Source of the DNA: Candidatus Krumholzibacteriia bacterium
Lineage (GTDB): Bacteria > Krumholzibacteriota > Krumholzibacteriia > JAJRXK01
NCBI GenBank assembly: GCA_035268685.1
Contig: DATFKK010000134.1
Location: forward strand, 1-47,380
DNA: 47,380 bases
Reading direction: 5' to 3'
The position numbers and the translations under genes are program-made. Of the stretch, positions 30,529-32,941 are shown piece after piece. Every line of letters starts with the position of its first letter. Positions within the stretch are counted from its first letter, which is position 1. The notes beneath the pieces are model-generated. The model was not told where the DNA came from. It saw nothing but the letters and a program-made list of their open reading frames with translations, and ran no database searches.

Positions 30529-31620
30529 TCAGAAGGCGTGCCCGAAGGACAGGTCCCCCTCGATCGACTCCTCGCCGACGGCCAGATCCGCGCGGATCAG
30601 GAGATCCCGGTCCTCGGTGGCGTGCAGGCGCAGCCCCACCCCGACGGTGGGTCGCATGGTGCCCAGCTTGAAGTCGTTGTAGGCGGGCGCGACGTTCGCC
30701 AACCCGCCGAAGGCCACCCCGTCGAGCCGCCCGATCAGTGGTCGCCGCCACTCGGCCTGCACGGCGGCCATGCGCCGCTCCAGGAAACGCCCCCGCTGGT
30801 ATCCCCGCGAATGCGCGCGTCCCCCGACGGCGGCGTAGCGCCAGATCGGAGGGTCTCCGAAGAGAGCGAAGGTGAAGGCCTGCAAGGCCAGGACGTTCCC
30901 GCCTCCGAGGTCGTGGTACGAGCGGAAGTCCAGGTGGTAGTTCTGGAACGCGAAGTCGCCGCTCATGTCCTCACTGAAGAACAGTGCGAATCCCTGGGCG
31001 TGGACACCACTGCTCGGTGCATAGAGGTTGTCGCGGCCGTCCCACTCCCAGACGATTCCGGCGCCGGCGGCGTTGTCGCAGCAGAGGCCCGGATAGTCCC
31101 GTGTGTCGAGCAGGCCACCGTCTTCGGTCTCGAGGTAACGGAAGTCGTTCCACTCGACCCGCCCGCCGACGCGGAAGCCGTCGAACACGCGGTGGAAGAG
31201 TTCGACGTACGCGAGCAGGCTCTGGGGGCGGTAGGTCTCTTCGTTCGACTCCGGCGAGTCCGATCCCAGCCCCCAGAACCGCCGCGCGAGGGTCTCGAAT
31301 TCGACCTTGCTCTTGAGGAACCAGGTGCCCTTGCCGAAGTAGACCGTCGCCACGGCCTCGGCCGATCCGTGGCCGGTCGTGTGCAGACGCCCCTTCACCG
31401 TGAACTCGGAATCGACGGAGAGATCGCCCTGAAGTGGTGTACGGAAGGGTCGGATGGCCTCGAGACCGACCCCGAAGTCGTCCTGGGAGGAGTGGTAGGC
31501 CTTGGGCACGAGCACGATCCCGGCCCCGTCGAACCGGGGCGGGAAGAAGTCCCACTCGACCGCCCCGGCCGACGTCGGCAGGACGACGAAGAGCAGGGCC
31601 AGGACCGGACCTCGGATCAC
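30529..31620 (-). CDS. Omp85/surface-antigen (D15)-like outer-membrane barrel
   Basis: This 363-residue exported protein has a signal peptide (VIRGPVLALLFVVLPTSAGA). The barrel resembles the C-terminal surface-antigen (D15/BamA-like) domain without POTRA repeats. The start of the barrel (FFPPRFDGAGIVLVPKAYHS) and the strand WEWDGRDNLYAPSSGVHAQG are typical, as is the conserved RGYQRGRFLERR near the C-terminal third, the [V/I]RG[Y/F] signature of Omp85 barrels. The sequence ends with an aromatic strand terminus (SFGHAF). The GTG start at 31620 overlaps the stop of the AhpD-like selenoprotein gene (GTGA). That puts the barrel in the selenium operon, a connection I cannot explain functionally. 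Confidence 0.82.
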   Translation of the reverse strand: MIRGPVLALLFVVLPTSAGAVEWDFFPPRFDGAGIVLVPKAYHSSQDDFGVGLEAIRPFRTPLQGDLSVDSEFTVKGRLHTTGHGSAEAVATVYFGKGTWFLKSKVEFETLARRFWGLGSDSPESNEETYRPQSLLAYVELFHRVFDGFRVGGRVEWNDFRYLETEDGGLLDTRDYPGLCCDNAAGAGIVWEWDGRDNLYAPSSGVHAQGFALFFSEDMSGDFAFQNYHLDFRSYHDLGGGNVLALQAFTFALFGDPPIWRYAAVGGRAHSRGYQRGRFLERRMAAVQAEWRRPLIGRLDGVAFGGLANVAPAYNDFKLGTMRPTVGVGLRLHATEDRDLLIRADLAVGEESIEGDLSFGHAF

Positions 31621-32183
31621 CCGGCGACCTCCGGGTCGTCGGGTCCACCCTCTCCCGGCCGTGTGGGCCACAGGCCCATCGCCTCGGCGAAGCGGTTCAG
31701 GTAGTTGAACATGCCGATCACGCAGGCCATCTCCACGATCTGGTCGTCGTCGAAGTGGGCACGAAGCCGCACGATGTCGGGCTCCTCGATGGCCCGTGCC
31801 TCGCGCGTCATGCGCTCGGCGAAGCGCAGTGCCTCGCGCTCGCCCTCGCTCACCGGACAGGTCTCGGGGTCTTCGAGGGTCTCGAGCACCTCATCGCGAA
31901 TTCCGTGCCGTCTTGCCAAGACGGTGTGCGAGGCGAGTCAGTAGCGGCACTCGTTGATCTGCGACACACGGACCGCGAGCATCTCCTTGAAGCCCACGGT
32001 GAGGGTACCGTCGGCCGACAGCACCGCTCCGAAGTGCGCGTTGAACGTCTTCATGAGTTCGGGACGTCGGCCCATCACCCGGAACAGGTTGGGCACGTTC
32101 CCGCGCTCGTCGTGGAAGTGTTCGAAGATCCGCTGCAGGCGGGGTTCCACCTCACCCCAGCGGAGGCGCTCCAGGTAGGACAC
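31617..32183 (-). CDS. AhpD-like selenoprotein with CxxU redox motif (UGA read as Sec)
   Basis: Read through an in-frame UGA at 31940-31938, the gene gives a 188-residue AhpD/carboxymuconolactone-decarboxylase-fold protein. Without readthrough it is cut exactly inside the active site: ...VSQINECRY-[UGA]-LASHTVLARRHG. In cysteine homologues this reads CxxCxxxH, so Sec82 replaces the resolving Cys, Cys79 is the partner and His86 the proton-relay residue. The C-terminal half continues normally (ETCPVSEGEREALRFAERMT then DDDQIVEMACVIGMFNYLNR). A hairpin of SECIS shape begins 13 nt after the UGA. AhpD-like selenoproteins are known, and the family reduces peroxiredoxin-type partners. The GTG at 32183 follows CTGGAG. 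It is the second gene of an operon whose first gene also has an internal UGA, and the divergent neighbour is yedF. Confidence 0.9.
31908..31924 (-). promoter_or_regulatory. Candidate bacterial SECIS hairpin in the AhpD-like gene
   Basis: On the minus strand, CCGTCTT-GGC-AAGACGG forms a perfect 7-bp stem with a loop beginning GG. It starts 13 nt after the UGA, putting the loop at nt 21 after the codon. Bacterial SECIS elements lie within the reading frame, with the apical loop about 16-37 nt downstream and a G at the start of the loop. This meets both rules. Confidence 0.75.
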
Positions 32184-32219: not shown

Positions 32220-32408
32220 TCAGCGACTCGAGGACGACACGCCCGTCTCTTCGTCGTCCGTCTCGATCCGGGACGACTTCGGGCTCTCGCGCTGCTCGAC
32301 CGAGCAGCCGTCGGGCGCCATTCAGGTGGCAATGCCGAATCGCGGCAGCACCCAGCGCTGCAGCGCGAACCAGGCGACCAGGAACAGCAGGACGTAGAGG
32401 GTATCCAT
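32220..32408 (-). CDS. Small membrane selenoprotein candidate (62 residues, UGA at codon 29)
   Basis: The first 28 codons encode a transmembrane peptide (MDTLYVLLFLVAWFALQRWV then LPRFGIAT). The in-frame UGA at 32324-32322 is followed at once by MAPDGCSVEQRESPKSSR and a Ser/Glu/Asp-rich tail to a second TGA at 32220. Read as Sec, the motif is T-U-M-A-P-D-G-C just after the membrane helix: a Sec and a Cys five apart, on the cytoplasmic side by the positive-inside rule. A SECIS-like hairpin follows with the same geometry as in the next gene, and its GGUC loop equals that of the E. coli fdhF SECIS. It lies 36 bp upstream of the AhpD-like selenoprotein gene. The start codon has no good Shine-Dalgarno site and lies in an inverted repeat. 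I cannot name the family. Confidence 0.75.
32291..32308 (-). promoter_or_regulatory. Candidate bacterial SECIS hairpin in the small selenoprotein gene
   Basis: On the minus strand, GCTGCTC-GGTC-GAGCAGC is a perfect 7-bp stem with a GGUC loop. It starts 13 nt after the UGA, the same spacing and stem length as the hairpin in the AhpD-like gene. The loop sequence matches the minimal fdhF SECIS of E. coli as I know it. Confidence 0.75.
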
Positions 32409-32596: not shown

Positions 32597-32941
32597 ATGG
32601 ACACCGCCTATCTCGTGACCCGCCCACACCTCGGCCACGTCGCGCCCGAGGACCTCGAATTCGGGCAGAAGATGCTCGGGAAGTTCCTGGGCCAGCTCGT
32701 GGGCGCGCCCGAGCCGCCCGAGGCGATCTGCCTGTACACCGAGGGCGTGAAGGCGGCGCTGGAGGGCTCGCCGGTGCTGGGCGACCTCGAGCAGTTGGAG
32801 GCCGCCGGGGTCCCGATCCTGCTCTGCGGTACGTGCATCGAGCACTACGGTGTGGCCGACCGCGTGCGCGTGGGCGAGGTGGTCGACATGCAACGGATCG
32901 CGATCGCCCTGGGCGGGGCCGACAAGGTCGTCACCGTCTGA
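32597..32941 (+). CDS. yedF: YedF-type selenium-metabolism protein (DsrE-like domain)
   Basis: This 114-residue protein matches the C-terminal DsrE-like domain of YedF, the 'sulfurtransferase-like selenium metabolism protein' often encoded near selD in selenium-using bacteria. Blocks seen are EFGQKMLGKFLGQLV, AICLYTEGVKAALEGSPVLG, LEQLEAAGVPILLCGTCIEH and VGEVVDMQRIA. The CGTC pair is the conserved Cys site. The usual N-terminal TusA-like domain is absent. The ATG at 32597 follows GAGGAG at ideal spacing. It is divergent from the operon with two internal UGA codons, which supports reading those UGAs as selenocysteine. Its molecular role is unproven. Confidence 0.85.
   Translation: MDTAYLVTRPHLGHVAPEDLEFGQKMLGKFLGQLVGAPEPPEAICLYTEGVKAALEGSPVLGDLEQLEAAGVPILLCGTCIEHYGVADRVRVGEVVDMQRIAIALGGADKVVTV

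Follow-up and report, generated by a model that had tools for sequence, protein, structure and literature searches.

A probable selenocysteine-containing AhpD-like enzyme encoded next to a candidate small membrane selenoprotein in a Krumholzibacteriia bacterium

Introduction

A gene for an AhpD-like protein in a draft genome of a Candidatus Krumholzibacteriia bacterium is interrupted by a single in-frame TGA, and the question is whether this codon is read as selenocysteine (Sec) or marks a broken gene. The locus lies in a stretch of 47,380 nucleotides (contig DATFKK010000134.1), which was analysed as a whole and is referred to here as the window. A sequence-only reading of the same DNA had joined the two open frames into one full-length AhpD-fold protein, placed the TGA at the second Cys of CxxCxxxH and preferred Sec to a nonsense mutation.

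Results

One AhpD/CMD-fold protein spans the TGA

The gene, its recoded codon, its hairpin and its downstream neighbour are as follows.

31617..32183, minus strand: AhpD-like (TIGR01926 / PF02627) predicted selenoprotein gene, 188 aa, U82; GTG start at 32183, TGA stop at 31619-31617
31938..31940, minus strand: in-frame TGA, predicted Sec82, second position of CxxUxxxH (C79, U82, H86; E67 upstream)
31908..31924, minus strand: predicted bacterial SECIS hairpin, CCGTCTT-GGC-AAGACGG; 7 bp, GGC loop 20 nt past the UGA
30529..31620, minus strand: gene for an Omp85-like outer membrane barrel, whose GTG start and the AhpD-like stop overlap by 4 nt

The TGA (31940-31938) divides the frame into 81 and 106 codons, and readthrough gives a protein of 188 residues (...SQINECRY-U-LASH...). 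Joining two frames is by itself no evidence, since the window holds 145 joins over a single TGA when all six frames are scanned with at least 60 open codons required on both sides. The weight is therefore carried by homology across the TGA, by the position of the TGA and by GC3 on its two sides. The joined protein matches TIGR01926 (peroxidase-related) with 100.7 bits against a cut-off of 81.8 over residues 4-173, a match that spans the TGA and places the protein in this family; the Pfam CMD model gives 54.7 bits. PDB entry 2pfx aligns with residues 15-175 (E=7e-21), and 2prr and 2oyo likewise cover both halves. GC3 is high before (0.89) and after (0.86) the TGA, and the gene contains no further stop or frameshift. 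The two frames at 31617-32183 are thus confirmed as one full-length AhpD/CMD-fold protein, as had been claimed without naming the strand, which is minus. The placement of the TGA at the second Cys of CxxCxxxH also stands: Cys lies opposite the TGA column in three printed alignments with solved homologues.

Searching genome contigs with this protein as the sole query returned just three relatives, all distant and from Bacteroidota. No close orthologue was found, the congeneric genome offering only a 31% relative. No Rfam hit in the window reached its gathering score; a local search brought up only a chance match to a miRNA.

Active site

The proton relay of Mycobacterium tuberculosis AhpD consists of Glu118, Cys130, His132, Cys133 and His137, that of PA0269 of Glu36, Cys48, Tyr50, Cys51 and His55 (PMC3141380); by the literature, the Sec82 column is the position of Cys133. 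The AhpD-like protein has E67, C79, Y81, U82 and H86 at the AhpD spacing, with the predicted Sec replacing the second Cys. In the AhpD family the residue equivalent to Cys133 adjoins the relay His and is the more reactive of the two Cys, for which reason we favour the term 'attacking' over 'resolving' for the position of Sec82.

A SECIS-like hairpin follows the UGA

The hairpin begins 13 nt after UGA82. Published criteria for bacterial SECIS elements call for a loop of 3-9 nt, a stem of at least 4 bp, a G in the first two loop positions, a distance of 16-37 nt from the UGA and a minimum free energy of at most -7.5. With 7 bp, a GGC loop at 20 nt and -8.6 kcal/mol for the 42-nt fold, the AhpD-like gene falls within all of these limits; the bare stem (-7.4) is just short of the -7.5 limit. 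The stem is built with rare codons, TTG accounting for 7.5% of Leu and AGA for 0.3% of Arg codons in the window genes. Total folding energy over 45 nt does not set the gene apart, 89% of synonymous recodings being at least as stable, so the published SECIS pattern was used instead.

Compared with synonymous recoding, the hairpin of this gene alone is suggestive (p=0.06-0.10). The same test applied to the family (16-37 nt, G[GU] loop) finds a hairpin in 14 of 15 UGA genes with a combined p=3.7e-5, a value that is somewhat optimistic because a few rows are related to each other. The UGA homologue L049 is without a fitting hairpin. Cys homologues give no hairpin signal in this test (p=0.98). Across the AhpD-like family the SECIS evidence is strong.

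Sec machinery and further selenoprotein genes in the host

The host genome is a 4.59-Mb draft in 202 contigs and is 99.3% complete. It encodes SelA (385.8 bits), SelB (335.7 bits) and SelD (324.9 bits) as well as tRNA-Sec (74.2 bits against a 47-bit cut-off), which ARAGORN also reports as tRNA-SeC with anticodon tca. Three checks had been proposed along with the sequence-only reading, and all turned out in its favour: homologues have Cys or UGA at column 82, a SECIS-like hairpin of the published pattern lies past the UGA, and selA, selB, selC and selD all occur in the same genome, as expected for an AhpD-like selenoprotein.

Other genes of the host carry in-frame TGA codons. The SelD gene (L018, G000:C87:29957-30889) has one at SAAG-U-AAK and a hairpin (7 bp, GGA loop) after it; a second AhpD-like paralogue (L024 / L045, G000:C198:5154-5705) has TGA in the same column (GCRY-U-RRAH). 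Two peroxiredoxins (L118 and L119, on G000:C97 and G000:C59) carry a TGA at the U position of a TxxU motif; several AhpC-TSA matches of the genome, at most 6 of 21, hold one in-frame TGA. A Cys-type AhpD-like relative, L064, is encoded as well. The host uses Sec, and its selenoproteome is sizeable.

The UGA recurs in one alignment column across the class

A TIGR01926 search of 80 genomes of the class yielded 30 related loci. In-frame stops occur in 16 of them, one TGA per locus and in every case in this column, never TAA or TAG; this recurrence lies beyond the single-sequence view of the earlier reading. Among the 18 loci above the TIGR01926 cut-off, 13 have UGA, three Cys, one Gly (GGA) and one Ala (GCA). 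On a tree the Sec label requires three changes. The Gly form (L039, GGA), the Ala form (L044, GCA) and a Cys form (L040, TGC) are nested inside Sec forms in one family group, and a weak hairpin is retained at the SECIS place in L039 and L044. Such nested relatives with a leftover weak hairpin are as expected after loss of Sec. SelA was found in 78 of the 80 genomes, and the Sec trait is very uniform for the whole class.

Other readings of the TGA

If an AhpD-like gene that once had Cys here had suffered a nonsense mutation, its frame would equally be broken by a single TGA, and the Cys-type relative L064 in the same genome fits such an origin. A pseudogene is nevertheless very improbable. The TGA occupies precisely the codon at which Sec would be expected, the family alignment and GC3 are kept on either side of it, no other stop or frameshift has accumulated, and the start of the downstream gene still overlaps the AhpD-like stop by 4 nt. 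Moreover, 15 other loci, including the paralogue in the same genome, have TGA in the same column. This last point bears also on a sequencing or assembly error that turned TGC or TGT into TGA: an assembly of 202 contigs leaves room for such errors, but independent errors would not give the same TGA in other assemblies of the class, and we rate this explanation lower still.

Just as improbable as an assembly error is a change of code that assigns UGA to another amino acid, or unspecific readthrough. UGA terminates ordinary genes here, the AhpD-like gene itself included; a tRNA-Sec with anticodon UCA is present together with SelA, SelB and SelD, and the recoded UGAs stand at Cys positions with SECIS-like hairpins. 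We conclude that the gene very probably (about 0.96) encodes an AhpD/CMD-fold selenoenzyme in which UGA82 is read as Sec through SelB and the hairpin. Machinery, hairpin and recurrence at 16 UGA loci in the class strongly support this assignment at the level of sequence, and the earlier preference for Sec is upheld.

A candidate gene for a small one-helix selenoprotein upstream

Upstream of the AhpD-like gene lies a second candidate selenoprotein gene, which was absent from the sequence-only reading, and beyond it a gene with a link to selenium metabolism.

32220..32408, minus strand: predicted gene for a small selenoprotein of 62 aa with U29 and a membrane helix at its N terminus; 36 nt separate it from the AhpD-like gene downstream
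32322..32324, minus strand: in-frame TGA, predicted Sec29 of the small selenoprotein
32291..32308, minus strand: SECIS hairpin predicted for this small gene; 7 bp, GGTC loop (GCTGCTC-GGTC-GAGCAGC)
32600..32941, plus strand: gene for the C-terminal (DsrE-like) domain of YedF, a protein of selenium metabolism, standing alone; it scores 77.6 bits where the TIGR03527 cut-off is 110

The YedF-domain gene is divergent from both selenoprotein genes. The small protein reads MDTLYVLLFLVAWFALQRWVLPRFGIAT-U-MAPDGCSVEQRE..., its membrane helix being read by eye off the sequence, and its gene is probably on the same transcript as the AhpD-like gene.

Relatives were found in 53 of the 80 genomes of the class with the single protein as query and in 64 with a 12-row profile, in which P22, G25 and U29 are invariant and R23 and C35 nearly so. 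Of the matches, 65 extend to the Sec column and every one has TGA there (three short matches stop before it); no Cys form occurs among these 65 matches from the 80 genomes. Searches for Cys/Sec pairs that start at Cys homologues could therefore not find this family. Of the 30 loci that were read completely, 27 have a hairpin at p<=0.05. The stem covaries in one subgroup of 17 sequences, where 25 cells are changed on both sides and shuffles give 7.3; in the same sequences none of the slid registers comes near the covariation of the true register.

Pfam and NCBIfam hold no credible match to the small protein, and plasmid records no credible relative. Table 1 of a 2026 review (119 families) has no entry that fits, although the family may go under another name elsewhere, and a literature text search on its motif returned only unrelated words such as septum. 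On balance, we favour the view that the small gene represents a selenoprotein family that has not been described before. Its proteins have ~50-70 residues, a single membrane helix and the pattern LPRxGVxTU-x(4-5)-C-x(2)-GDR, were seen in the Sec form only and occur in most genomes of a phylum-level lineage. Here the small gene and the gene of the Sec AhpD-like enzyme would make up one selenoprotein operon, and the small protein is perhaps the membrane-bound redox partner of the enzyme.

We had considered the small gene as a constant neighbour of AhpD-like genes and rejected this: elsewhere it adjoins ArsR-like, FmdB-like, MATE-like or tRNA-synthetase-like genes (by eye). It is often found beside genes for FmdB-like zinc-ribbon proteins or ArsR-like regulators (L099, L108, L114; L101, L102, L113; by eye).

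Discussion

We propose that SelB with GTP and Sec-tRNA-Sec would bind the hairpin and that the ribosome would thereupon insert Sec at UGA82, as the machinery and the hairpin suggest. Going by the chemistry of the family, the selenolate of Sec82 most likely attacks a peroxide or a disulfide; Cys79 would resolve it, giving a selenenylsulfide that a thiol donor of the cell could then reduce. By this analogy the protein is most likely a reductase of peroxides or disulfides that works through a selenenylsulfide intermediate. Spacing and overlap make co-expression with the upstream small membrane selenoprotein and the downstream Omp85-like gene probable; GGAGGT stands just before the GTG of the latter.

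Standard annotation would cut the AhpD-like enzyme in two and miss its 62-codon neighbour altogether. The lineage, with its near-universal SelA, appears to use Sec not only in SelD, AhpD-like enzymes and peroxiredoxins but also in a tiny membrane protein, which, if real, would be a widespread selenoprotein lacking from catalogues.

AhpD-like selenoproteins of the COG2128 / TIGR01926 type with CxxU were described from the Sargasso Sea in 2005 (PMC1088965), 'AhpD-like 1' selenoproteins are listed for GOS in 2008 (PMC2398784), and the TIGR01926-type CxxU family appears in Table 1 of PMC13188914. The AhpD-like gene thus adds one member to a selenoprotein family that has been known since 2005. The sequence-only reading had estimated its novelty in the same way, as a new instance of a known family in a poorly sampled lineage, and the listings of TIGR01926 CxxU proteins (PMC13188914, PMC1088965) bear this out. 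The small neighbour family is the better candidate for novelty. Two related AhpD-type (seleno)protein families of NCBIfam, 'AhpD_rel_CFYUT' (NF041238) and 'GroundWater_YciW' (NF053654), do not include the AhpD-like protein, which scores 54.9 of 175 and 66.7 of 310, far under their cut-offs.

With the known TIGR01926 CxxU selenoproteins the AhpD-like protein shares a model score over the cut-off, the CxxU motif and a SECIS-like hairpin directly past the UGA. It differs in its poorly sampled lineage, in the second selenoprotein gene and YedF-like gene that adjoin it, and in being only about 25-36% identical to the relatives found. Fold family and relay spacing are shared with M. tuberculosis AhpD and PA0269-type proteins (PDB 2o4d, 2pfx, 2prr, 2oyo; PMC3141380). 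Unlike M. tuberculosis AhpD, the protein described here is predicted to carry Sec for the second Cys (Cys133), and its operon has no AhpC partner.
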